Shown here: in pieces, positions 1,596-64,000 of the stretch
How positions within the stretch are numbered: the stretch's first letter is position 1
Layout: the number at the start of each line of letters is the position of its first letter
Assembly: GCA_019635955.1 (NCBI GenBank)
Contig: JAHBYL010000005.1
Coordinates: 1-64,000 of the forward strand
Origin: Parvibaculum sp.
GTDB taxonomy: Bacteria > Pseudomonadota > Alphaproteobacteria > Parvibaculales > Parvibaculaceae
Reading direction: 5' to 3'
Length of the DNA: 64,000 nt
The notes under the pieces: model-generated
What the model saw: the letters and a program-made list of their open reading frames with translations, nothing else
Told to the model about the DNA's origin: nothing
Databases searched by the model: none
Position numbers and translations under genes: made by a program

Positions 1596-2737
1596 TGAGT
1601 GGCTTCCTTTGCGCGGGCGCCTGCCTTGCCAGTCTTCATCAACGGCCGCTGACCGACGACACGGAGACCATAGCCATCCAGGCCGACGATGTTGCGATCG
1701 GTATCGGACAGCAAAATCATGTCATGGATGCCGAGGTCGAGCAAAATCTGCGCGCCGACGCCATATTCACGCAGGCGGCGCGGCATGCCCTGCTCGCCGC
1801 CCTCGCCCTTTCTGAGCAGCATGTCCGAGACGACGGTCGCAGTCGTATCGCGAATGAGGACGATCACGCCCCGCCCCTCTTCGGCAATCATCCGCATGGA
1901 TTCCTCGAGGATATGCGAGCGCGGGCCGGTCGCGCCCAGAATGTCGTCGAAGACGTTGATGGCGTGTACGCGCACCAGGACCGGCTCCGGCCCCGACAGA
2001 TCGCCCTTCACCAGCGCGATATGCTCGGCATATTCCACCGTGTTCAGATAGACCATCATCTTGAACTCGCCGCCAAACTCGCTTTCGAGTTCGGTTTCGA
2101 TGGCGCGGTGGATGAAATTGTCGTAGCGGCGGCGATAGGCGATGAGATCGGCGATGGTCGCGATCTTGAGGCCGTGGAGCTGCGCGAAGGGCACGAGGTC
2201 CGGCAGGCGGGCCATGGTGCCGTCGTCATTCATGATCTCGCAGATGACGCCCGCGGGATAAAGCCCTGCGAGGCGCGCGATGTCGACCGCCGCTTCCGTG
2301 TGCCCTGCCCGCACCAGCACGCCGCCATCGCGCGCGACGAGTGGGAAGACATGTCCCGGCGAGACGATATCGTTGGCGCCTTTCGTGGGGTCGATCGCGA
2401 CCGACACCGTATGCGCACGATCATGCGCCGAGATGCCGGTGGAGATGCCTTCGCGCGCTTCGATCGACACGGTGAAGGCAGTCTGGTTGCGCGACTGGTT
2501 GTTGAGCGACATGAGCTGCAGATTGAGCTGCTTCGCCCGGTCGCCTGTCAGCGTGAGGCAGACGAGCCCGCGGCCATACTTCGCCATGAAGTTGACCGCT
2601 TCCGGCGTGCACATTTGTGCGGGGATGACGAGGTCGCCCTCGTTCTCGCGATCTTCCGCATCGACGAGAATGAACATCTTGCCGTTGCGGGCATCCTCGA
2701 TGACTTCTTCGATGGGCGACAGAAATTCCTTGTACAC
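1592..2737 (-). CDS. ribB: 3,4-dihydroxy-2-butanone 4-phosphate synthase fused to a degenerate GTP cyclohydrolase II domain (RibBX type)
   Basis: The N-terminal half (about residues 1-205) is a full RibB domain: [12 protein letters not shown] is the acidic metal-binding motif and [13 protein letters not shown] is the conserved C-terminal segment. It makes dihydroxybutanone phosphate from ribulose 5-phosphate. The C-terminal half is RibA-like (ends with [10 protein letters not shown]) but the three zinc cysteines and the GRGIGL-type catalytic stretch are absent; the corresponding text reads [14 protein letters not shown] and LIRDTTATV. Such RibBX hybrids are known from Proteobacteria and do not replace RibA. 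A GTG start at 2737 is chosen because AAGGA lies 9 bases upstream; a TTG at 2746 is possible. A true ribA must lie elsewhere. Confidence 0.9.
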
Positions 2738-2742
2738 GGGTC

Positions 2743-3369
2743 TCAATCCTTCTGAACCAGCCGCGCCACATAGCGGGCAAGCATGTCGATTTCAAGATTA
2801 ATCGGATCGCCGGCCTTGGCCGTCCCCCAGGTCGTGACCGCCTGGGTGTGCGGAATGATGTTGACGCCGAAGCGGGTTCCCTTCGCGTTTCCGCCGGGCT
2901 TCGGGTCTTCGACCTCATTCACGGTAAGCGAGGTGCCGTTGAGCGTGACGGAACCCTTCGGCGCAATGAAGCGGCCGAGCCCCTCCGGTGCCTCGAAGGT
3001 GAAGCGGAGAGAGTCCCCCTCCGGGCGGATATCGACGATATGGCCGACCCCGTCGACATGCCCGCTGACGACATGACCGCCAAGCTCATCGCCCGCCTTC
3101 AGCGCGCGTTCGAGATTGATCCTCGTGCCTTCCGCCCAGCTGCCGAGCGTCGTGCAATCGAGCGACTCCTGCGAGACATCGACGGCGAACCAGTTGCCAT
3201 CCGCATCGCGGCCCTTCTCGACCACCGTGAGGCAGCAGCCCGCACAGGCAATGGAGGCGCCGAGATCGATGCCGTCGGGATCGTAGGACGTCGCGATGAC
3301 AAAGCGCGCATCGCCGCGCTTCTCCATCGCTCGAACCCGCCCGACATCGGTGATGATTCCGGTAAACAA
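2743..3369 (-). CDS. ribE: riboflavin synthase, alpha subunit type
   Basis: Dismutates two 6,7-dimethyl-8-ribityllumazines to riboflavin. The protein (208 residues) starts with the near-invariant FTGIITDVG, has the internal duplication of two barrel domains, and contains GHVVSGHVDGVG. The start is a TTG at 3369: it restores the canonical N-terminus and has GAGGAGCG at good spacing, whereas the ATG at 3387 lies inside ribD. Only one base separates it from the ribD stop. Confident. Confidence 0.95.
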   Translation of the reverse strand: MFTGIITDVGRVRAMEKRGDARFVIATSYDPDGIDLGASIACAGCCLTVVEKGRDADGNWFAVDVSQESLDCTTLGSWAEGTRINLERALKAGDELGGHVVSGHVDGVGHIVDIRPEGDSLRFTFEAPEGLGRFIAPKGSVTLNGTSLTVNEVEDPKPGGNAKGTRFGVNIIPHTQAVTTWGTAKAGDPINLEIDMLARYVARLVQKD

Positions 3370-3370
3370 G

Positions 3371-4492
3371 TCAGACGCTCCTCGCATAGCTTGCATGCAT
3401 GTCGTCGCCGGCGCGGGCCATGTCGCGCAGCACGAAACGGGGCGCGCCTTCCACATGCCTGATGCCGAGCGCGGCCACCGCGGGATATCCGTCGCCGCCG
3501 ATCAGGCGCGCCGCCTGGAACCATTCGATACGGTCGACCAGCGCGTCGCGCATCAGCGATGCGGCGAGCCTTGCGCCGCCTTCCACGAGCACGCGCGTGA
3601 CGCCCCGCGCGGCGAGATGTTCCATCGCCTTGCGCATGTCCATGGAGCCATCCGCGCCCGGCTCGACATCGATCAGCTCGACGCCGCAATCCTCGAAAGC
3701 CTTGCGCCGGACGGCATCGCCCTCCGGCATGGTCAGAATCCAGAGCGGCACCTTGCCCGCATCGCGAACGAGCTTCGATGTGAGCGGCAGGCGCAGCCGC
3801 CCGTCCGCCACGATGCGCACCGGCGAGCGGTCGCCGAGGCCCGGCAGGCGGCAGGTGAGTTCGGGATCGTCCACGATCGCCGTGGCCGAGCCAACCATGA
3901 TGGCGTCGTGCGTCGCGCGCAGGAGATGCCCGCGCGCGCGCGACACCTCGCCCGTGATCCACTTGCTCTGGCCTTCATGGGTCGCCGTCCGCCCGTCGAG
4001 CGAACTCGCAACCTTCAGCGTGACCAGCGGACGCCGCTCCGACATGGTGAGGAAGAAGCCGAGATTGAGCTCCTGCGCATCGGCGGCGCAGACATTCTCC
4101 GTCACCTCGATGCCCGCCTCCAGAAGCCGGGTAAAGCCGCGCCCGGCGACTTCCGGGTTCGGATCGGCGATCGCCCCGACGACGCGGGCGATGCCCGCAT
4201 CGATGAGCGCCTCCGCGCAAGGGCCGGTCTTGCCCTGATGCGAACAGGGCTCGAGGCTGACATAGGCCGTGGCGCCCTTTGCAAGTGCGCCTGCGCGGGC
4301 AAGCGCTTCCGTTTCCGCGTGAGGCCGGCCGCCCGGCTGGGTGAAGCCCCGTCCCACGACACGCGGGCATTCGGCCTCTTCCCGGACGATGACGCAGCCG
4401 ACCGCCGGGTTGGGCGCGACGCGGCCAAGGCCGCGCGCGGCGAGCGCCAGCGCCATTTTCATGAAGGGGATGTCGTAGGGCCGCATTGCCAT
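3371..4492 (-). CDS. ribD: bifunctional diaminohydroxyphosphoribosylaminopyrimidine deaminase / 5-amino-6-(5-phosphoribosylamino)uracil reductase
   Basis: Second and third steps of riboflavin synthesis. Residues about 5-150 are a zinc cytidine-deaminase fold with PHAETEAL and PCSHQGKTGPC (zinc His and two Cys). Residues about 155-370 are the NADPH reductase domain (TLKVASSLDGRTA, LVEGGARLAASLM). Length of 373 residues is usual. ATG at 4492 or two codons later. First rib gene after nrdR; with ribE, ribBX and ribH it forms an operon lacking only ribA. Confidence 0.96.
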   Translation of the reverse strand: MAMRPYDIPFMKMALALAARGLGRVAPNPAVGCVIVREEAECPRVVGRGFTQPGGRPHAETEALARAGALAKGATAYVSLEPCSHQGKTGPCAEALIDAGIARVVGAIADPNPEVAGRGFTRLLEAGIEVTENVCAADAQELNLGFFLTMSERRPLVTLKVASSLDGRTATHEGQSKWITGEVSRARGHLLRATHDAIMVGSATAIVDDPELTCRLPGLGDRSPVRIVADGRLRLPLTSKLVRDAGKVPLWILTMPEGDAVRRKAFEDCGVELIDVEPGADGSMDMRKAMEHLAARGVTRVLVEGGARLAASLMRDALVDRIEWFQAARLIGGDGYPAVAALGIRHVEGAPRFVLRDMARAGDDMHASYARSV

Positions 4493-4555
4493 GGCCGCGA
4501 TGTCATTCCTGTCGGCAGGCCCGAACCGGCCCGCATCAGGGGCAACCGGAAAAGC

Positions 4556-5041
4556 CTAGCGGTCGTCGTCGTCCTCATCCCGGATGGAGCCGATGGGTTT
4601 CAGCTCGCCCAGAATATCCTCGAAATCCTTGGCCTCCCGGAAGTTCCGGTACACCGAGGCGAAACGCACATAGGCGACCGCATCGAGAGAACTCAAGCCT
4701 TCCATGACCAGCTTGCCGATCACATTGGAGGGAATTTCGCTCTCTCCCATGCTCTCCAGCCGCCTTACGATGCCGCTCACCATACGCTCAATACGCTCCT
4801 GCTCAACAGGGCGTTTACGCATGGCAACTTGCACGGAACGCATGAGTTTATCCCTGTCGAAGGGGACCCTGCGGCCGCTGGTCTTGATGATCGTCAGTTC
4901 GCGGAGCTGCACCCGCTCGAACGTGGTAAACCGGCCGCCGCAGGCAGTGCAGAAGCGCCGCCGCCGGATCGCCGTATTGTCTTCGGTGGGACGCGAGTCC
5001 TTCACCTGCGTGTCTTCGTTACCGCAATATGGACAACGCAT
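4556..5041 (-). CDS. nrdR: transcriptional repressor NrdR
   Basis: Represses ribonucleotide reductase genes in response to ATP/dATP. Four cysteines (C3, C6, C31, C34) form the zinc ribbon CPYC...CTAC; residues about 49-139 are the ATP-cone ([13 protein letters not shown]). 161 residues with an acidic tail DEDDDDR. It sits between glyA and ribD, the classical glyA-nrdR-ribD order of alphaproteobacteria, 42 bases after glyA. Confidence 0.97.
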
Positions 5042-5083
5042 GCGCCGCCAGCCCCCTCTTGATGCATCCGGACCTGTGGCCCG

Positions 5084-6400
5084 TTATTTCGGCCCGCCAT
5101 AGATCGGAAAACGCCGGCAGAGTTCGATCACCCGTTCCCGCACGCCCGCTTCGACATCCGCGTTGTTCTCTTCGCCGTTCTTCGCCAGACCGTCGAGAAC
5201 TTCCGTGATGAGCTTGCCGACCGTCTCGAACTCCGCCACTCCGAAGCCGCGCGTCGTGCCGGCGGGCGTGCCGAGACGCACGCCGGAGGTGACCATCGGC
5301 TTTTCGGGATCGAACGGAATGCCGTTCTTGTTGCAGGTGATGTGCGCACGCTCGAGCGCCGCCTCCGCCACCTTGCCGGTGAGCTTCTTCGGCCGGAGGT
5401 CGACCAGCATCAGATGCGTGTCGGTGCCGCCGGAGACGATCGCCGCGCCGCCATCGACCAGCGTCGAGGCGAGCTTGCGCGCGTTCTCGACCACGGCTGC
5501 CGCATAGGACTTGAACTCGGGACGAAGCGCTTCGCCGAAGGCGACCGCCTTGCCCGCGATCACATGCATGAGCGGGCCGCCCTGAATGCCCGGGAAGATC
5601 GCGGAATTGATCTTCTTCCCGATCTCTTCGTTGTTCGACAGGATCATGCCGCCGCGCGGGCCGCGCAGCGTCTTGTGGGTCGTCGTCGTCACGACATCGG
5701 CGTAAGGCAGCGGGCTCGGATGCGCCCCACCCGCGACGAGACCGGCGAAATGCGCCATGTCCACCATGAAGAGCGCGCCGACGCTGTCGGCGACTTCGCG
5801 GAAGGCCTTGAAGTCGATCACGCGCGGATAGGCGGAGCCGCCTGCAATGATGAGCTTCGGCTTGTGCTCCTTCGCGAGGCTCGCGACCTCGTCCATGTCG
5901 ATCAGATGGTCCTGCTGGCGCACGCCGTACTGGATCGCGTTGAACCATTTGCCGGACTGGTTGGGCGCGGCGCCATGCGTGAGGTGGCCGCCGGCGGGGA
6001 GGCTCATGCCGAGGATGGTGTCACCCGGCTTCAGCAGCGCCATCATCACACCCTGGTTCGCCTGCGAGCCCGAATTGGGCTGCACATTGGCGAAGGAGCA
6101 ACCGAAGAGCTTCTTCGCCCGCTCGATGGCAAGATTCTCCGCAATATCGACGAACTCGCAGCCGCCGTAATAGCGCTTGCCGGGATAACCCTCGGCATAT
6201 TTGTTCGTCATGATCGAGCCTTGCGCCTCGAGCACGGCGCGGGAGACGATGTTCTCCGAGGCGATCAGTTCGATCTCGTTCTGCTGGCGTCCGAGCTCCT
6301 TCTCGATCGCGGCGAGGATATCCGGATCGCTCTTTGCAAGCCCATCCGTGAAGAACCCCGCAAATTGGACCTTTCCGGCGGCGGCATCGCTCAACGACAT
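5084..6400 (-). CDS. glyA: serine hydroxymethyltransferase
   Basis: PLP enzyme interconverting serine and glycine with tetrahydrofolate, the main source of C1 units. The PLP lysine is in [39 protein letters not shown] and PNSGSQAN are family hallmarks. Length of 438 residues from ATG 6400. This start is favoured by AAAGG seven bases upstream; an in-frame ATG at 6442 would add 14 non-conserved residues. First gene of the glyA-nrdR-rib run. Confidence 0.96.
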
Positions 6401-6501
6401 AAATCTACCTTTTGTTACCAATTCGAAGGCCTTGACGAGCATTTCTCATTCCCCGTCGCAAGCAAGAAGCGCCGGATCCGGAAGCCCGTTGGGAAGGCGG
6501 C

Positions 6502-6531
6502 TTGATACCACATCTCGTCAGCCACCGCCAA
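6502..6531 (-). promoter_or_regulatory. possible sigma-70 promoter for glyA
   Basis: On the minus strand TTGGCG (6531-6526) and TATCAA (6507-6502) are separated by 18 bases, about 100 bases upstream of the glyA ATG. Weak match, found by eye. I saw no riboswitch-like fold in the leader. Confidence 0.3.
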
Positions 6532-6600
6532 TTCGGCACTAAGCCTCGCGGGCACGGTGGCGGCACCGAAGCGGGCGGCGCAGGGAACGCGCGTGATGAC

Positions 6601-6853
6601 GCACTCAATCTATTCTATGTGGAATTAATGTAAGAAATCAGAGAAATCGAAGGTTTACTTGTACCGTCCAGTCGATAATCTTTTGAGTCAACGCGAAATT
6701 CATTGATTCACCTTGGTTCCAAATGGTTTAGACATGTCACCATCTGGACGATAATCTTGATATTCAAATTTGAAGGCGCTATACCGCGCTGGAAAATTGT
6801 ATAGGCACGAGCCGCGAATGGCGGTTTCGCATTCAGGCGGGCACGACGTCGAG
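6601..6853. promoter_or_regulatory. AT-rich intergenic control region between glyA and mucR
   Basis: The gap 6401-6853 is non-coding. Its right half is markedly AT-rich compared with the window. CGATAATCTT occurs twice in direct orientation, at 6673-6682 and 6749-6758, each followed by a GA two or fewer bases on. MucR/Ros proteins bind AT-rich sites with TpA steps and commonly autoregulate, so this is a likely regulator-binding region; the assignment is inference. Confidence 0.4.
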
Positions 6854-7297
6854 ATGAGCGACACCAAATCTTCGGATTCCATCGACTCCACTGAAATACT
6901 TCGACTGGCGACTGAAATTGTTGCGGCTTATGTCAGTAACAATGCAATGTCCGCGAACGATCTACCGGGAATGATCCGCACGGTCCATTCGACCCTCGCA
7001 GGTCTCGACCAGAGCGCCGCGCCCCGGGAAAACGATCTGACGCCCGCCGTGCCCGTCAAGAAATCGGTCACCGCCGACTACATCGTCTGCCTGGAAGATG
7101 GCAAGAAACTGAAAATGCTGAAGCGCTACCTGCGCTCGCAATACGGGCTGACGCCGGAAGAATACCGCGCCCGCTGGAACCTGCCCCACGATTACCCGAT
7201 GGTGGCGCCGAACTACGCCGCGCAGCGCTCCAAGCTTGCCAAGCAGATCGGCCTCGGCCGCGTTGCCGAAGCGGCGAAACCGCGCAGAAAAAAATAA
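6854..7297 (+). CDS. mucR: Ros/MucR-family transcriptional regulator with degenerate zinc finger
   Basis: Global regulator of the Ros/MucR family (exopolysaccharide, motility and symbiosis or virulence genes in relatives). From ATG 6854 it has 147 residues, the family's length. The N-terminal half is the oligomerisation region; the DNA-binding half carries LTPEEYRARWNLP and YPMVAPNYA. By comparison with Ros, the zinc ligands Cys79, Cys82, His92 and His97 are here C79, D82, Y92 and Y97 (residue 96 is Q), so only one remains. Zinc-free family members exist, so it is probably still functional. In-frame ATGs at 6770 and 6818 are less likely starts. Confidence 0.85.
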   Translation: MSDTKSSDSIDSTEILRLATEIVAAYVSNNAMSANDLPGMIRTVHSTLAGLDQSAAPRENDLTPAVPVKKSVTADYIVCLEDGKKLKMLKRYLRSQYGLTPEEYRARWNLPHDYPMVAPNYAAQRSKLAKQIGLGRVAEAAKPRRKK

Positions 7298-7303
7298 TCC
7301 GCC

Positions 7304-7588
7304 TCAGACGACGATGCCGCCCTTTCCGTCATCCGGCGGAACGGCGGGCGCGTCGTCGCCACCGTCTCCCTCGGTCTTTTGAAGAACGTAACGCAGCTTG
7401 CGGAGCGCAATGGCCTCGAGCTCCGTCTGCGCTGCGCTGGACGGGCCGATGATGGAAACCTCCTTGCCGGTTTCCACATCGATGGCCGAGACCTTCATGC
7501 TGATGCCGACGGGCACGAACTCGAAAATGACCTCGCGGCCATCGCGGTTCACGGGGCGCTTGCCCCTATGCCGGTTTTCAGGCGGCAC
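7304..7588 (-). CDS. small conserved protein, DUF6898-like
   Basis: 94 residues. The central block [20 protein letters not shown] followed by [10 protein letters not shown] and a helix with ALRKLRYVL resembles a small alphaproteobacterial family (DUF6898 in my recollection) of unknown function. No signal peptide or membrane segment. It starts inside the 3' end of hemA (11-base overlap) and its stop is six bases from the end of convergent mucR. Probably co-transcribed with hemA. Confidence 0.7.
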
Positions 7589-8789
7589 GCCTGATCTTGC
7601 GGCGCGTCCAGACCTGATCGAGCGCCGAAACGAGATCGCGCATCATCTCGTCGGTATGTACGGGAAGCGGCGTGAAGCGCAGCCGTTCCGTGCCGCGCGG
7701 CACGGTCGGATAATTGATCGGCTGGACGTAAATGCCGTAGTCGCTCAGGAGCTCGTCGCTGACCTGCTTGCAGACGACGGGATCGCCCACCATGACCGGC
7801 ACGATATGGCTTTCGCACCACATGACGGGCAGACCCGCATCCGCCATCATCCGGCGAAGCGTCGATGCGCGTTCCTGATGGATTTCGCGCTCGAGCGAAC
7901 TCGTCTTGAGGTGGCGGACCGCCGCCAGGACGCCCGCGACCAGCACCGGCGAAAGCGAGGTCGAGAAAATGAAGCCCGGCGCATAGGAGCGCACGACATC
8001 CACGAGGTCGGCTGAGGCTGCGATATAGCCCCCCATCACGCCGAAGCCCTTGGCGAGCGTGCCCTCGATGATATCGACCTTGTCGAGCACGCCGTCGCGC
8101 TCGGCAATGCCGCCGCCGCGCGGGCCATAGAGCCCGACCGCATGAACCTCGTCGAGATAGGTCAGCGCGCCATACTTCCGCGCGAGATCGCAGATGGCGC
8201 CGATGGGCGCGATGTCGCCATCCATCGAATAGACGGATTCGAAGGCGACGATTTTCGGCTGATCGGGATCGATCGCACGAAGCAGTTCTTCGAGATGGGC
8301 GAGGTCGTTGTGCTTCCACAGACGCTTCGGACCGCCGCCGCGGCGGATGCCCTCGATCATCGAGGCATGGTTCATCTCGTCCGAGATGATGACGCAATCG
8401 CCGAGAATGCGCGCAAGCGTCGAAAGCGTGGCGTCGTTTGCCGCATAACCCGAGGTGAAGAGCAGCGCCGCTTCCTTGCCATGGAGATCGGCAATCTCGC
8501 GCTCGAGCTGGACATGGTAATGCGTCGTGCCGGAAATATTGCGCGTGCCGCCCGAACCCGCGCCGACCGTGTCGATCGCCTCATGCATGGCCTTGAGCAC
8601 CGCCGGGTGCTGCCCCATGCCGAGATAGTCGTTGGAACACCAGACGACGATATCCCTTGTGCCTTCGGGCGTGTGGAAGGTCGCGCGGGGAAACGAGCCG
8701 CGATGCCGCACGATATCGGCAAAGACGCGATAGCGGCCCTCATCCTTGACCGCCTGCAGCGCTTCGCTGAGTTTCCGCTCGTAATCCAT
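7578..8789 (-). CDS. hemA: 5-aminolevulinate synthase
   Basis: Condenses glycine and succinyl-CoA to 5-aminolevulinate (the C4 or Shemin route of tetrapyrrole synthesis). The PLP lysine is K247 in [22 protein letters not shown] binds substrate and [12 protein letters not shown] holds the PLP aspartate. Length of 403 residues matches the bacterial enzyme. The C4 route is typical of alphaproteobacteria. hemB, the next pathway step, is separately located at 15.1 kb. The preceding 128 bases show no clear operator. Confidence 0.97.
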
Positions 8790-8917
8790 CTCGTACCTGT
8801 CCTGCGATCCGGTTTGACCGGCTTTTCATGTGATTCTAGCACACCTTAGCCCGCATCCACAGCCTCGCCAGCCGCGAATTGTCGCAGAATAGACATGGGT
8901 TATAGACAAGCGTGGCG

Positions 8918-9691
8918 CTAGGCCCAAAGGCCCTTTTCAATCAGGACCTTCCGCAGCAAAGCCGGGTCATCCGTCATGATCCCGTCCACGCCGAGATCGA
9001 TCAGGCGCCGCATTTCGGCCTCCTCGTCGATCGTCCAGACATGGACCTGCAGCCCCAGTTCATGGGCCTTGCCGACCAGCGCCTCGTCGACGAGCCGGAT
9101 GCCATGCTGCTCTATCGGGATCTGTGCGCAGCCTTCCACAAAACCGCCCATCAGGAAGCCCGCCGGCCCGGCCCAGCTCGCAAAGCGCAGGCGACCGGTG
9201 GAGAGCGGCCCCATGCCGGTGCAGAGCCGCGGGCCGATGGCCTCGCGGATGCCTGCCGTGCGCCGCCCCGAAAAGGCAGTCACACAGACCCGCTCCACCG
9301 CGCCCGAGTCCTTCAGAAGCCGGATCAGCGGCCCGGCCGCATTGTCGCGCTTCGGATCGATGTTGATGCGTATGTCCGGCCAGGCGGAGAGCAATTCGGC
9401 CATCAGGGGAATGGGCTCGGTGCCGGCGATCCGCGCCTTCTTCACATCGGCATAATCCATCTCCGCGATGCAGCCGGTGCTGTCGGTCACACGGTCGAGG
9501 TGGTCGTCGTGAAAGGCGAGAAGCACGCCGTCCCGCGTCGCATGGACATCCGTCTCGATATAGCGGTAGCCGAGATCGACGGCGCCCTGAAAGGCGGGCA
9601 TCGTGTTTTCCGGCCAGGCCCCCGCGCCGCCGCGATGGGCGAAGGCGAGCAGACCGTCATGTTCGAGATAGGGAAATTTCGCCGGACGCAT
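8918..9691 (-). CDS. ugpQ: glycerophosphodiester phosphodiesterase
   Basis: Hydrolyses glycerophosphodiesters to an alcohol and glycerol 3-phosphate. The GDPD signature AFAHRGGAGAWPENT, then ETDVHATRDGVLLAFHDDHLDR, supplies the catalytic His pair and metal-binding acids; IDPKRDN and HVWTID follow in order. About 257 residues, no signal peptide, so probably cytoplasmic (UgpQ-like). ATG 9691 has AGGA just upstream; GTG 9703 is an alternative. It follows the transpeptidase gene by about 25 bases. Confidence 0.9.
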   Translation of the reverse strand: MRPAKFPYLEHDGLLAFAHRGGAGAWPENTMPAFQGAVDLGYRYIETDVHATRDGVLLAFHDDHLDRVTDSTGCIAEMDYADVKKARIAGTEPIPLMAELLSAWPDIRINIDPKRDNAAGPLIRLLKDSGAVERVCVTAFSGRRTAGIREAIGPRLCTGMGPLSTGRLRFASWAGPAGFLMGGFVEGCAQIPIEQHGIRLVDEALVGKAHELGLQVHVWTIDEEAEMRRLIDLGVDGIMTDDPALLRKVLIEKGLWA

Positions 9692-59687: not shown

Positions 59688-60119
59688 CTAGAACTCGATG
59701 ACGACCGATGGCGCGCTGCGCTTCGCCTCGCCGTGATGGACGACTTCAATATTGTTGCCGTCGGGATCGAGCACGAAGGCGGCGTAGTAGCCGGGGTGAT
59801 ACTGATCCCTGAGGCCGGGCGCGCCGAAATCGCGGCCGCCATGGGCGAGCGCCGTGCGGTAGACTTCATCCACCGTTGCCCGGTCCTTCGCCTGGAAGGC
59901 CAGATGGTTCCGTCCGGTCAATTCGCCGAATGCCGCCTCGCTGCCGGCGGAGGACACGACAAACTCGTCGGCCCAGAAATAGCCGTCCGGCGTGTCGGTG
60001 ACGGGAACCTCGAGCACGGCAAGAATGGCCTTGTAGAAATCCCTGCTGGCATCGAGATCCCTCACCACGAGTTGCACGTGATCGATAAGCCGGCCCCGGT
60101 GCAGTCGATTGAGTTCCAT
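59688..60119 (-). CDS. VOC (glyoxalase/bleomycin-resistance fold) protein
   Basis: 143 residues. LIDHVQLVVRDLDASRDFY starts the first beta-alpha-beta unit (metal His), and FVLDPDGNNIEVVHHG ends it (metal Glu). AAGGAGAAG lies upstream of ATG 60119. The reaction cannot be predicted. Last chromosomal gene before the prophage. Confidence 0.87.
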   Translation of the reverse strand: MELNRLHRGRLIDHVQLVVRDLDASRDFYKAILAVLEVPVTDTPDGYFWADEFVVSSAGSEAAFGELTGRNHLAFQAKDRATVDEVYRTALAHGGRDFGAPGLRDQYHPGYYAAFVLDPDGNNIEVVHHGEAKRSAPSVVIEF

Positions 60120-60232
60120 GGCTCTTCTCCTTCGGAAAATGGGTCCGTGAGGCTTCTTCAAACAACAACGAACGGAGGCGCCCAAACGATGCGGCGGCAT
60201 GTTGACTGATTGCGTGGAGAGGATGGGATTGG

Positions 60233-60258
60233 CGAAAACAGGCTTTGGCCTGTTTTCG
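60233..60258. repeat. perfect hairpin, possible terminator
   Basis: CGAAAACAGGC (60233-60243) pairs with GCCTGTTTTCG (60248-60258), four-base loop TTTG. A second hairpin, CGAGCGGC-GGT-GCCGCTCG, follows at 60283-60301. They could stop phage repressor transcripts or be host DNA; no poly-T tail beyond TTTTCG. Confidence 0.5.
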
Positions 60259-60320
60259 TCCTCGGCCTTACGGCCTTCGGATCGAGCGGCGGTGCCGCTC
60301 GCCTGTGGGGAGGTGATCGC

Positions 60321-60486
60321 TTTGGCACGGGCTATCGAGGGACCGAAACCACCGGGCGCGGCGGAAAGTGTTGTGGGTATCGGCACTTAACCGCCTCTCG
60401 ACATCCCGAAAACCCGGCGCGCGCTTTGGCACCGAACGAGCGGGATTGAGCGAAAGCGAGCACTTCGCGCACTTGTTTTGGCACGG
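60321..60486 (+). repeat. three direct repeats of TTTGGCAC, candidate transposase-binding sites
   Basis: TTTGGCACGG at 60321-60330, TTTGGCACCG at 60425-60434 and TTTGGCACGG at 60477-60486. The last two share a following GAGCGGGA. Spacing is 104 and 52. Mu's left end also has three spaced transposase sites, so the arrangement is suggestive. Confidence 0.45.
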
Positions 60487-60714
60487 AAGCGAGCGGGAAC
60501 AATCACCTTGCGCGCGGATCGTGAGCAGCCGGAAACCCAGAAAGTACCGCGACTTTCGCGCCGAGAAACGCCGCGCGTCCGGCCGCCTGGCGGGTGACGG
60601 TGCGGCCCGGCAATCCGTCACGGTCTGCGCAAATCGCCGTCCGCGCCGTGACGGTTCTCCAAGTCATTGAAATTAAGAGGATATCCAGCCGCGCCGGAGA
60701 GAGGTGTCCGCGAC

Positions 60715-60738
60715 GACGTGACGGCTAACAGTCACGTC
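60715..60738. repeat. inverted repeat next to the repressor stop
   Basis: GACGTGAC (60715-60722) and GTCACGTC (60731-60738) with eight-base loop, four bases before the repressor stop codon. Could be a terminator stem or protein site. Confidence 0.45.
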
Positions 60739-60741
60739 TAT

Positions 60742-61245
60742 TCAGGCCTTCCGCAGCTCTCGTTTCAGACTGTTAACGGCCACCCGCAACCCGCCGCGAA
60801 ATTCGGCGTCATCCTCGATATCCCAGGTCTGGCCGTAAATGCGGGCGGTCGCTTCGCCGATCTCCGCACCGTCGGCCTCGCCGTCCGCCGCTTCGTATGC
60901 GGCCTTCACCTCATCCATGACCTCGATGAAACGGGCGACTTCGACCGGAGCATGCCCGCCACGCCGCCCAATCGGCCGCTCGTCCCACAGGAGCCAGTCG
61001 AGCGAAACGCCGCCTGCCTTTGCTATCGCGGCGATGCTGTAGAGGTTCGGTTTCGCCTTTCCATTCAGGTATCGCGAGATCATCTCGTCCGTCACCCCGG
61101 CGATCTCCCCCGCCGCGCCGTTCCCGCCGAGTTGGGAGACCACGGCCCCAAGGCGCGACGCGAATCCGGCGTCCCATCCTTCTACCCGCGCGCCGTCTTT
61201 CTTCCCTGCCCTTCGGCTAACCGAAGCCATTGATTTCCCAAACAT
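60742..61245 (-). CDS. Mu-like phage repressor (HTH)
   Basis: 167 residues. The N-terminal DNA-binding part (about 25-90) has GEIAGVTDEMISRYLNGKAKPNLYS as helix-turn-helix and SLDWLLWDE; the rest is a small effector or dimer region. Gene orientation (leftward, divergent from ner) matches the c repressor of Mu-like phages. ATG 61245 or 61230. Confidence 0.8.
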   Translation of the reverse strand: MFGKSMASVSRRAGKKDGARVEGWDAGFASRLGAVVSQLGGNGAAGEIAGVTDEMISRYLNGKAKPNLYSIAAIAKAGGVSLDWLLWDERPIGRRGGHAPVEVARFIEVMDEVKAAYEAADGEADGAEIGEATARIYGQTWDIEDDAEFRGGLRVAVNSLKRELRKA

Positions 61246-61362
61246 AATTGGAAAGTCGCGAATTAACCGACTTTTCTCGTTGACGAATGACGACTTTTGT
61301 TGGAATCATCCACGCATTAACCAACTTTCATCGTCGTTTCGGCCTAACAGGATATCGCTACC
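61246..61362. promoter_or_regulatory. repressor/Ner operator-promoter region
   Basis: 117 AT-rich bases between divergent repressor and ner. AAAGTCG (61252-61258) faces CGACTTT (61268-61274); CGACTTTT recurs at 61291 and a variant CAACTTTC at 61322. Probably operators for lysogenic and early promoters. Confidence 0.55.
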
Positions 61363-61695
61363 TTGGCAGACCCAAAAAAAGCCGCCGAAGCCGAGGCGGA
61401 GATTTTCAGGAACCCGGTCCAGCGCCGGGCGTGGGTGAACTTTCAACTCAAGATTCGGGGCCTCTCTTTCGCCGCGCTCGCAAGGCAGGAAGGTGTTGTT
61501 CCGCAGGCGGTGTCCGCCGCCCTCGCCTCCCCATCCCGCGAACTTGAAGAGGCGATTGCAGCCGCCGTTGAGCGCCCGGTTGAAATCCTCTTTCCCGAGC
61601 GCTTCATCGACGGCCGGCGGATCGCCCCGACACGCGACCGCAAGCGTAGCAGCGGCGGCGACCTTCGCAATGTTCAAATTGCCGGGGCGCGCTGA
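61363..61695 (+). CDS. Ner-like phage transcriptional regulator
   Basis: 110 residues, TTG start with AGGA ten bases upstream. SFAALARQEGVVPQAVSAAL is the helix-turn-helix and VEILFPERFIDGRRI the typical Ner ending. Ner proteins repress early and repressor promoters of Mu. First rightward phage gene. Confidence 0.85.
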   Translation: MADPKKAAEAEAEIFRNPVQRRAWVNFQLKIRGLSFAALARQEGVVPQAVSAALASPSRELEEAIAAAVERPVEILFPERFIDGRRIAPTRDRKRSSGGDLRNVQIAGAR

Positions 61696-61696
61696 C

Positions 61697-62191
61697 ATGG
61701 CCCGCCGCCCCTCGCCGCACGTCACCTCGCCAAACCAGCCTGGCTTCTTCGACCGGCCGGGCGCGATCCTCGAAGGCGCCGCCCTTTCTACCGCGATTCG
61801 CGAGGCCGTGGCCGACGCCCTGGCCTTCGCCAAAGCACAAGGCCGTGACCGTTTCGCGGTCGCTTCCGATATGTCCCGCCTCCTCGGCCGCGACATGACG
61901 AAGAACATGCTCGACCGCTATGCCGCGCCCATCGCCGACGAATGGCGGCTGCCGCTGGAAGCGCTCCCCGCGCTTATCCGTGCGACGGGGGACACGCGGC
62001 TTGTGACGCTCATCGCCGACGCCTGCGGCTTCAAGGCATTGCCAGGGGAAGCAACCGCCGTCGCCGAACTCGTGACCCTTGAACTCCAGCAACGTGCGCT
62101 CGCCTCGCGGATCGCCGCCGCGAAAAAGAACCTCCCGCAACAGGCGCTCGATTGGGCCGAACGCGAAGCCGAAGCGAGGGGCCAGCAATGA
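61697..62191 (+). CDS. phage regulatory protein, CII-like
   Basis: 164 residues. DMSRLLGRDMTKNMLDRYA followed by ALIRATGDTRLVTLIADACGF resembles the phage CII (CP76) regulator family, with an alpha-helical C-terminus. One base after the ner stop; overlaps the next start as ATGA. Early-gene activator is a guess. Confidence 0.6.
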   Translation: MARRPSPHVTSPNQPGFFDRPGAILEGAALSTAIREAVADALAFAKAQGRDRFAVASDMSRLLGRDMTKNMLDRYAAPIADEWRLPLEALPALIRATGDTRLVTLIADACGFKALPGEATAVAELVTLELQQRALASRIAAAKKNLPQQALDWAEREAEARGQQ

Positions 62192-62580
62192 AACTCGTGA
62201 ACGGCATGCCGGTCGATACAGAACAGCGCCGCGTCTACATCATTTGCGAAATATTTTTCGGTGCCATCGCCCAACCGAAAGATGTCGCCGATGCCAAGCT
62301 TGCCGCGCGGGTGGTTGCCGCGAGCGACGCCGCCGCCGGCTACGCGCTGACGCTTGGCGCGAATATCGGCGCCGATGCCTTCGGCCTCGACATATTAGCC
62401 GAGTCTGGAACCACAACGGATTTCCGCCGCGCTGACGCGCTGGCGCAACATCTCTATGGGCTCGGCTACAAGGCTTTGGGCGACGACCGTTGCGGTTTTG
62501 TGTACGAGCTCGCGAAGGCAATTCGAAAATACGATGCGGTGGCGGGGTTCTCGCTCGTAAAAGCGGGAGGTCAGCAATGA
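62188..62580 (+). CDS. hypothetical phage protein
   Basis: 130 residues, mainly helical, starting MKLVNGMPVDTEQRRVYI. No signal or membrane segment. Overlaps neighbours by ATGA on both sides, so it belongs to the early operon. Not recognised. Confidence 0.65.
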   Translation: MKLVNGMPVDTEQRRVYIICEIFFGAIAQPKDVADAKLAARVVAASDAAAGYALTLGANIGADAFGLDILAESGTTTDFRRADALAQHLYGLGYKALGDDRCGFVYELAKAIRKYDAVAGFSLVKAGGQQ

Positions 62581-64000
62581 AGAGCTGGCTTACCGCATCC
62601 CAATTGGCCGACCTCAAGATACCCGGCCTTCCAGCCTCGAAGTTCCGCGTCATCGAGCGCGCGCGCCGCGAAAAATGGGCCTGCCGCAAGCGCGCGGATC
62701 GCGGCGGCGGCAGCGAATATTGCGTCCAATCGCTTTTGAAATCGCTGCCGGAAGGTGCGCGGCGCTCGCTCTTGAAGGCGGTGATCGACACATCGGACGA
62801 TCTTCCGGTGCCCGCGAAGCCTTGCCGCTCTATCGAGCTGGCCGCCACCGCCTCGCCGCTCGCCGACTGGCAGCTCCGTTGCGCGGAAGCCCGCGCCGCG
62901 CTCCTTCTCGAAGTCGAGCGGCTAGCCTGTTTCGCCGGCATCGAAGCCGCGATTGAGGAAGTCGTCCATCTCGCGGCAGCGGGCGAGCTGCGGCCCGATC
63001 TGCAAGAGCTGGTGGCCGCCGCCAACGCGCGTCCCGGCAAAGAGGGAAAGCGCGCGCTCTCGATACGGACAATCAAGCGCTGGCGCAGCCTTCACGGCGC
63101 GGGCGGTATCGAAGCCCTGACGCCCTCTGCGCCGCCACCTGCCGCTCCACCGGTATGGGGTGCCGCCCTGCTCAAGCTCTACAACACGCCGACGAAGCGC
63201 AGCCTAGCCGCGATCATCGAAGAAGACCTTCCCGCCGCACTGCCGGAAGGCGTTCCCTGCCCCGATTATCACGCCGCCCGCCGCTTCCTCGCGCGCGTCT
63301 CCGTCGTGGATCGCGAGCGCGGCCGTCACGGGCCGAACGGGCTCCTGAAATTCAAGGGCTTCAAGCGGCGCTCGACGGAAGGGCTGCAACCGCTCGATGT
63401 CGTTACGGCCGACGGCCACAGCTTCAAGGCCGATGTCGCCCATCCCGTTCACGGCAAGCCGTTCCGGCCGGAAGTCTGCGCACTGCAAGATGTGACGACG
63501 CGCTATGTCTTCGGCTGGAGCACGGGCATCGCGGAAAGCTCCCATGTCGTCATGGACTCGATCCGTCATGGCGTTTCGTCCCTCGGCCTCTTCGCGCTCT
63601 TCTATACCGACAACGGCTCCGGCTTTGTCGCCAAGGCGATGACGGCCGAGGTAACAGGCTTCTTGTCGCGGCTGGGTGCGACGCCGGACAACTCGCTCCC
63701 CGGCCGCGCTCAGTCGCGCGGCAAGATCGAGCGCCTGCAATCCACGCTCTGGAAGCGAGCGGCGCGGAAGCTGCCGAGCTATTCCGGCCGGGACATGGAC
63801 GGCGAGGCTCGCCGCAAAGTCGTGAAGCTCATCACGAAAGACCTCAGGGAACGCGGTGCAAGCCGCTTCCTGATCGGCTGGCAAGACTTCCTCGACTTCT
63901 GCACGGCGGCGGTCGAAGCCTACAACAACCGGCCTCATCGAATGCTCAAGCGCATCCGCGACGAAGCGACCGGAAAGCTCCGCCACCAATCGCCCGCCGA
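62577..64000 (+). CDS. Mu-like DDE transposase (MuA family), 3' end beyond the window
   Basis: At least 474 residues visible. N-terminal Mu-type DNA-binding domain (SWLTASQLADLKIPGLPAS, GGSEYCVQSL). DDE catalytic triad: Asp279 in TADGHSF, Asp345 in YTDNGSGF, Glu385 in RGKIERLQ; MuA has D269, D336, E392. Overlaps the previous gene as ATGA. Drives replicative transposition of the prophage. Confidence 0.92.
   Translation, partial: MKSWLTASQLADLKIPGLPASKFRVIERARREKWACRKRADRGGGSEYCVQSLLKSLPEGARRSLLKAVIDTSDDLPVPAKPCRSIELAATASPLADWQLRCAEARAALLLEVERLACFAGIEAAIEEVVHLAAAGELRPDLQELVAAANARPGKEGKRALSIRTIKRWRSLHGAGGIEALTPSAPPPAAPPVWGAALLKLYNTPTKRSLAAIIEEDLPAALPEGVPCPDYHAARRFLARVSVVDRERGRHGPNGLLKFKGFKRRSTEGLQPLDVVTADGHSFKADVAHPVHGKPFRPEVCALQDVTTRYVFGWSTGIAESSHVVMDSIRHGVSSLGLFALFYTDNGSGFVAKAMTAEVTGFLSRLGATPDNSLPGRAQSRGKIERLQSTLWKRAARKLPSYSGRDMDGEARRKVVKLITKDLRERGASRFLIGWQDFLDFCTAAVEAYNNRPHRMLKRIRDEATGKLRHQSPA

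Follow-up and report, generated by a model that had tools for sequence, protein, structure and literature searches.

This analysis concerns a 64,000-nucleotide stretch of DNA from Parvibaculum sp. (the window, which comprises bases 1-64000 of contig C147 and shares its coordinates) and the Mu-like prophage that begins near its right edge, on a contig of 97,842 bp that continues for 33.8 kb more beyond the window. With high probability the element is a temperate transposable phage in complete form that lives as a lysogen in a Parvibaculum-like host, inserts with a 4-base stagger and lands with a bias to hairpin-rich DNA. Judging from the sequence, it has an intact early operon, a transposase/ATPase pair, inverted TGT...ACA ends, a 4-bp target duplication, a corresponding empty site in a relative, and head and contractile-tail genes. 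The host is a Parvibaculum-like alphaproteobacterium lysogenic for a complete transposable prophage, represented by the consensus of a metagenome-assembled genome (201 contigs, 3.26 Mb, 86.8% complete, 5.4% contaminated) labelled G000; the other G labels used below designate comparison genomes, and L labels the compared loci or viral stretches.

The prophage spans contig positions 60304-94621 (34,318 bp), its right end lying outside the window. The left end was set in two ways: identity with the prophage of another Parvibaculum genome (L013/G011) sets in at exactly base 60304, and the same limit is given by the empty site of a near relative, G002 (locus L014), which has no phage at the locus and where the left flank joins the right flank with a single CGCC, the flanks being 96-97% identical. 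Comparison of the two junctions with this empty site and with each other identified the left copy of the duplicated CGCC at 60300..60303 and its right-hand partner at contig 94622-94625, beyond the window edge. The original prediction of the left end of a Mu-like transposable prophage is thus borne out by a complete element with MuB, structural genes and both ends, but its start at 60120 has to be moved to 60304, since position 60120 belongs to the beginning of a host gene of the glyoxalase family (59688-60122 on the minus strand), just left of the prophage. The right end and flanking target duplication that it anticipated are also present, with 4 bp instead of the expected 5. To the right of the phage lie tRNA-Ser(GCT) (94716-94808, minus strand) and then a host open reading frame (ORF; 94894-95976), thioesterase-like by eye.

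The prophage starts with TGTGGGG and finishes with GCGCTACA, and each end reads TGT, 14 bases, TTTGGCAC, the left terminus (60304..60328, plus strand) being mirrored at contig 94597-94621. Counting exact copies of the TTTGGCAC octamer only, there are three putative transposase sites on the left, all on the plus strand (L1, 60321..60328; L2, 60425..60432; L3, 60477..60484; respectively 17, 121 and 173 bases from the end), and two inverted ones on the right (offsets 17 and 39), with identical offsets in G011. These five copies (three on the plus strand, two on the minus) are the only ones on the 97.8-kb contig and all lie no more than 181 bp from the phage ends, the numbers expected from dinucleotide content being 0.93 and 1.0. 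In the clade of the window phage, right ends carry GTGCCAAA twice, 22 bp apart, followed by GCGCTACA, and the left-terminus 16-mer also precedes MuA relatives of 26-86% identity. Of the features that define Mu-like phages, the window phage has TGT...ACA ends with several putative transposase sites each, a short target duplication of fixed length (4 bp), a MuA-kind DDE transposase with an AAA+ partner MuB, and morphogenesis genes that come after a Mor-type activator.

The five early genes are in frame, with no internal stops, and were all placed correctly in the original prediction. They encode a leftward lysogeny repressor (60742..61245, minus strand; Pfam HTH_3, 8.7e-8, above cut-off, and PHROG repressors) and, on the plus strand, a Ner-like regulator of the HTH_35 family with a TTG start (61363..61695; Pfam 9.8e-11, above cut-off, phrog_769 7.5e-16), a CII-like regulator (61697..62191; phrog_2345 8.5e-31, with Phage_CP76 at 2.4e-4, under its cut-off), a 130-residue early protein of no assigned role (62188..62580; no PHROG match, DUF4088 at merely 0.014) and a MuA-type DDE transposase of 699 residues (62577-64676, of which 62577..64000 lies in the window; phrog_310 1.1e-137, Mu-transpos_C 1.8e-15, MuA structure 4fcy 2.5e-5). 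In the transposase both HTH_Tnp_Mu_1 and Mu-transpos_C score above cut-off. The ATGA overlaps claimed between the last three genes are present at 62188-62191 and 62577-62580, and the operon is intact. The gene order is nearer to that of D3112 (repressor, Ner, regulator, small ORFs, A, B) than to that of Mu, which had been proposed. The 130-residue gene just upstream of the transposase is variable, only one of eight distinct relatives (nine loci from eight records) having a counterpart (L044, 61% identity).

The catalytic residues D279, D345 and E385, correctly named beforehand, are in place in the alignment. Their last two members are indeed 40 residues apart, but this spacing is no peculiarity of the window phage: among the 16 aligned sequences spanning the region 15 have it, including the window transposase, and ThpS-P1 has 52. 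The value of 56 residues for MuA is the one given in the original prediction. A short D-E distance was accordingly rejected as an oddity, and it is better seen as a lineage trait because it is common to transposases of the D3112/DMS3 group.

The length of the target duplication was determined in relatives defined by their ends. The left 16-mer is present in 27 viral stretches, and in 17 of these, by our own reading, it is followed by a correctly oriented MuA relative (26-86% identity). Right ends were sought in eight such records and located in six (L067, L065, L071, L050, L058 and L057); none was found for L045, L059 and G202, and in L133 and L134 the right terminus is absent from the stretch read. 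With G000 and G011 added to the six located records, an exact 4-bp duplication was seen in eight of eight elements and a 5-bp one in none. The same end definition applied to the DMS3-like prophage GXNNB6 (PV425003), which is still in host DNA, gave 5 bp (CCGCC). Among class-level genomes both ends were located in three of the four tried, with 4 bp in G287 (CGCC) and 5 bp in G293 (CGCTC) and G100 (ATAAC); these three are less independent, as agreement of the flanks together with a fitting end site decided the choice of their left ends, and in G287 the 4-bp match bearing the TTTGGCAC site was preferred to a 6-bp match of the flanks at a different TG. Over the 12 elements with both ends located, the duplication is thus of 4 bp in nine and 5 bp in three. 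In the transposase tree, where several rows are partial, deep support is uneven and the 5-bp group amounts to three cases, the window-phage clade (G000, G011, L043, L053, L045, L057, L046, G287 as L077, and L067; support 0.999) has 4 bp in all five members measured, and a separate group of L050, L065, L071 and L058 has it in four of four. The virion records Presto and R24 have flanks without a match between the ends, which were taken as packaged host DNA.

The window phage departs from the 5 bp of Mu, the 6 bp of B3 and the 5 bp of the D3112 group. One source gives 5 bp for Mu and 6 bp for B3 (PMC8705779), a DMS3 study terms 5 bp characteristic (PMC11406979), and 5 bp is also stated for Citromicrobium Mu-like phages (PMC12486242). 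No report of a 4-bp duplication in Mu-like phages was found among the open-access titles listed. The matter is of general interest because duplication length reflects how far apart the two active sites stand on the target DNA, and a family with 4 and 5 bases, one catalytic core and similar ends constitutes a natural experiment on the determinants of this spacing.

Some of these records hold further observations. L057 (IMGVR_UViG_2700989461_000002, 1666-9531) is a 7.9-kb element with both termini, a 4-bp duplication, a transposase and an ATPase, too small to accommodate all the structural genes; it lies near a gene that is gp16-like by eye and may thus be a mini-element inside a second Mu-like prophage. 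In the DMS3-like records L140 (PV425003) and L144 (PQ533662) a gene annotated as 4-hydroxybenzoate transporter adjoins the phage end, and the two perhaps share one Pseudomonas hotspot. By eye, the flank of GXNNB6 is similar to a REP palindrome.

As to the target, the host flank carries at 60216..60230 a 15-bp copy of the tRNA-Ser(GCT) 3' end, which lies at the edge of the phage's insertion target, a hairpin-rich element about 170 bp long (window 60213-60303 plus contig 94622-94715; found also at L014:7045-7220 and loci L097-L119). The far boundary of the element is a 15-18-bp stretch repeating the tRNA 3' end, and only tRNA attains the gathering score when it is searched with Rfam. The insertion points of G000 and of the viral contig L043 fall at the foot and loop of the hairpin CCAAAACGCC TTT GGCGTTTTG inside it. 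At least part of the element is matched by 13 of the 27 genomes of the genus; of 13 loci inspected, eight have a tRNA-Ser(CGA) nearby, one a tRNA-Ser(GCT) and four (one contig) neither. It behaves like a small inserted cassette, being absent at the tRNA-Ser(GCT) of G021. Since G011 lacks it, the element was rejected as the common target, although the phages of G000 and L043 both sit in it. Within the genus the locus varies: G002 has a gene resembling a GIY-YIG nuclease by eye between element and tRNA-Ser (L014, about 7220-7560) and G021 a dioxygenase-like gene at the corresponding place (L015, about 6750-7560).

Insertion biased towards tolerant, hairpin-rich sequence on the downstream side of tRNA genes fits both the D3112-group hotspots and the Mu pre-tRNA data. 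In PMC5977238 the former are described 55-61 bp from palindromic repeats, the remaining insertions look random, and none of 1000 mini-D3112 insertions gave auxotrophy; as for Mu, PMC7350765 describes more insertions in the 5' leader and 3' tail of pre-tRNA than in the mature part. No constant 55-61 bp spacing to a palindrome was seen in the elements compared here.

Several points weigh against the interpretation as a complete temperate phage with biased landing. The insertion points share no constant sequence, and PMC5977238 assigns to the D3112-group hotspots only about 5% of insertions, half of 14 being in coding sequence. The catalytic-domain models remain under cut-off on the transposase (rve, 29.0 of 32.6 bits; DDE_2, 16.6 of 23), which is therefore unlisted in the DDE_2 search of the genome. 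Neither an endolysin nor Gam was recognised among the ORFs scanned against PHROGs, and the prophage, only putatively inducible, is known solely from the assembly consensus.

The most serious alternative is an active preference for tRNA genes, in which MuB or a small early protein would recognise the tRNA gene or a factor bound to it, with the right end placed 70-95 bp beyond the 3' end of that gene; we regard it as possible but hold it only tentatively. In the genus, a close transposase is present in two of the 27 genomes, with distant matches in three more, and in both the right end lies downstream of tRNA-Ser(GCT), by 94 bp in G000 (duplication CGCC) and 69 bp in G011 (AGAT). L067, whose MuA is 49% identical, has its right end 87 bp from a tRNA-Met (GACC). 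All three (of 12 elements) have the same polarity, the tRNA 3' end facing the phage right end. L043, with a glyoxalase-like left neighbour and CGCC at its left junction, has its insertion point, in homologous sequence, 10 bp away from that of G000, its right end and tRNA side lying beyond the contig, and five other genomes have no phage end at the tRNA-Ser locus. Bacterial tRNA density can be taken as 50 genes per 4 Mb, at which the chance of at least two of 11 elements lying within 100 bp of a tRNA gene is 2e-5; since the first two cases set the geometry, L067 among the other ten is the independent test, at about 0.006 by our own arithmetic. Two small early ORFs (66910-67197 and 68510-69007), seen in the close clade only (in a comparison without L067) and without PHROG match, are candidate target selectors, though the sequence of L053 is too short to judge a counterpart of the second.

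The same reading has to accommodate nine of the 12 elements whose right flank, read over 175 bp to 15 kb, has no tRNA gene, two of them (L057 and G287) in the window-phage clade. None was present within 206-1777 bp of right flank in L065, L071, L050, L058 and L057, nor near the right end in G287, G293, G100 and GXNNB6, the nearest in G293 being 6.5 kb away. L053 and L045 apparently lie within genes, a long reading frame being open up to the junction (that of L053 resembles GmhA by eye; L057 is not clear), and the tRNA-to-end distances are spread over 25 bp. Left flanks gave a tRNA gene in none of 18 cases (77 bp to 10 kb, one being the contig of L043), a survey that is misleading as a control for tRNA proximity, because the tRNA in G000 and G011 stands on the right.

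A pattern scan that looked for right ends faced by a T-loop motif gave 23 matches at 85-115 bases, three of which appear to be true right ends with a tRNA (the record of L067; L160, tRNA-Cys at 79 bp; L162, tRNA-Phe at 89 bp), against one true case among 13 matches in the 285-315-base control (L179, tRNA-Ala, 267 bp) and no tRNA among 38 in the opposite orientation, where L207 may be a right end. The result is suggestive, but the counts are tiny and not significant alone. Twenty of the 23 near matches look like chance; L162 fails the stricter end test, yet its end site recurs 22 bp further in; the main protein of L160 has no PHROG match, and the five blastn matches listed for this record are to tRNA only. 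The exact right-end 20-mer and tRNA 52-mer had no match in the viral contigs. L162 (IMGVR_UViG_3300028908_000089) also has a tail region of the P2 type, with a phrog_28 tape measure and a phrog_52 tail protein, that ends about 70 bp before the Mu-type right terminus and tRNA-Phe, and is possibly a transposable phage with another tail type.

Taken together, a tRNA-proximal preference is plausible, not proven. Its boldest form, a phage branch with a 4-base stagger whose prophages would settle preferentially 70-95 bp past tRNA genes, the right end turned to the tRNA 3' end, by means of MuB or a small early protein, as a bacterial counterpart of tRNA-targeted retrotransposons, looks rather unlikely. 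No report of Mu-like prophages favouring the downstream side of tRNA genes was found among the open-access titles listed. If true, such a preference would amount to a safe-site strategy like that of tRNA-targeted retrotransposons, in phages usually called near random. The Dictyostelium TRE3 retrotransposons insert about 100 bp downstream of tRNA genes according to PMC5633606, an analogy only, as element, enzyme and host are unrelated.

That the shared locus reflects a single old insertion passed vertically to close relatives is very improbable. Phage and host divergence between G000 and G011 do look alike (transposase 87% at the amino acid level, thioesterase-like host gene 83% at the DNA level), but the duplications differ (CGCC and AGAT), 10 bp of homologous sequence separate the insertions of G000 and L043, and the uninterrupted site is still present in G002, whose host relationship is much closer. 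The 15-bp direct repeat of the tRNA 3' end that flanks the prophage could suggest a tyrosine-integrase prophage or island at tRNA-Ser carrying Mu-like genes, with the copy at 60216 and the tRNA at 94716 as att sites; this was rejected and deserves hardly any credence, because the repeat occurs with the hairpin element in the phage-free G002, similar elements lie at tRNA-Ser(CGA) elsewhere, the phage starts 73 bp past the repeat and its ends lie inside the repeats, and among the PHROG matches listed the integration class comprises MuA and MuB only, with no integrase. A relic or simple transposon, the outcome expected had MuB and structural genes been missing downstream, is just as hard to credit: two late ORFs (92034-92369 and 93149-94549) lack a PHROG match and only the first has a G011 counterpart, but the structural set is present in order and 27 of the 39 ORFs compared have a counterpart in G011 with 72-95% identity, two more ORFs being left aside because of stops inside the boundaries set for them.

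For the temperate transposable phage with biased landing, a life cycle can be proposed from D3112 and Mu biology. The repressor would maintain lysogeny; upon induction, MuA would bind the repeated end sites, MuB would bring it to target DNA, and the phage would replicate by transposition, after which the Mor-like activator would switch on the late genes and DNA would be packaged by headful. The transposase of this clade would join both ends to target strands 4 bases apart, not 5, with no integrase taking part. Landing would be mostly free but would favour terminator-like DNA rich in hairpins, the stretch that follows a tRNA gene being one example.

Extension to the right, where 30 ORFs from 62577 on (transposase included) plus four earlier ones were scanned against PHROGs, several small ORFs being outside the scan, yielded the genes expected of a complete phage. 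After the transposase come a MuB-like ATPase (64746-65492; phrog_296, E 2e-59), a regulator (65492-66124; phrog_2030), a DUF3164 protein (67405-68115), a gp16-like protein (69264-69911; phrog_286) and the Mor-like late activator (69908-70330; phrog_836). They are followed by an Rz-like spanin (71370-71687; weak, 0.0016), the large terminase (73085-74782; phrog_38), portal (74773-76218), MuF-like protein (76211-77104), fused protease-capsid (77732-80011), neck (80738-81244), tail terminator (81241-81867; weak, 0.01), tail sheath (82068-83537; phrog_165, 7e-174), tail tube (83546-83905), tape measure (84317-85996), hubs (85993-88279), wedge (89126-90331) and fibre (90741-92030). Among the functions that the original prediction had looked for here, MuB, the activator and the head genes were found, but lysis is represented by the weak spanin match only. 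A small contig of the same assembly (L004, G000:C16:1-4711) carries a second MuA (PF02914, E 3e-59), which along part of the protein has 27% identity with the first and is followed by an AAA+ ORF, MuB-like by eye; it is probably another transposable phage, or contamination.

In the search against known phages suggested beforehand, the transposase matched 158 of 50,697 phage records, 120 of them of Pseudomonas, all at less than 60% identity and the best being an unannotated fecal record (39%). The 1,424 bases of the transposase gene had no blastn match in these records, and for that gene the DNA similarity expected within a genus was thus not found. The transposase is 32-34% identical to those of the D3112 group, the terminase 59% identical to D3112 and DMS3, and MuB 48% identical to the D3112 group (best match ThpS-P1, 51.5%). 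The sheath is nearest to contractile-tailed phages (Bordetella PBb001, 46%; MuM16-2, 43%; SfMu, 40%), and the capsid protein has a single long match, in Microcystis phage Mae-JY22 (43%). Because terminase, MuB and early order match D3112 and the sheath matches contractile-tailed phages, the phage combines a D3112-type transposition, early and packaging block with a Mu-type contractile tail. SuMu, one of the transposase-matching records, is presumably contractile, and such mosaics may therefore have a precedent.

D3112 and DMS3 (Casadabanvirus) share with the window phage the early order of repressor, Ner, CII-like or other regulator, small ORFs, A, B and regulator, the 40-residue D-E spacing and, according to PMC4378225, repeated transposase sites near both ends, and the DMS3 termini TGTGGGGAGGTGA...CGCCGCGCTACA are akin to those described here. 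They differ in the tail, which the same paper describes as long, flexible and non-contractile, whereas the window phage has a sheath, and in the 5-bp duplication of the DMS3-like prophage. The Mu relatives SfMu and Shewanella MuM16-2 have the same general plan, tail sheath and baseplate order, but in MuM16-2 the transposase directly follows Ner, with no CII-like gene and small ORF in between. Rhodobacter phage RcapMu is likewise alphaproteobacterial and transposable (transposase 40% identical over 58% of the query; it starts with TGT and ends with CGCGCTACA) but differs by the lack of an annotated sheath, additional genes left of the repressor and another left terminus. The closest system is the prophage of Parvibaculum sp. 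NZ_JAUYUS010000100 (G011:C57, 8397-42672), alike in transposase (87%), MuB (95%), end-site offsets and tRNA-Ser locus, but with a repressor only 32% identical, no 130-residue gene and another insertion base. In summary, the phage type itself is already known, and it is the 4-base duplication and the tRNA-side location that set the window phage apart.

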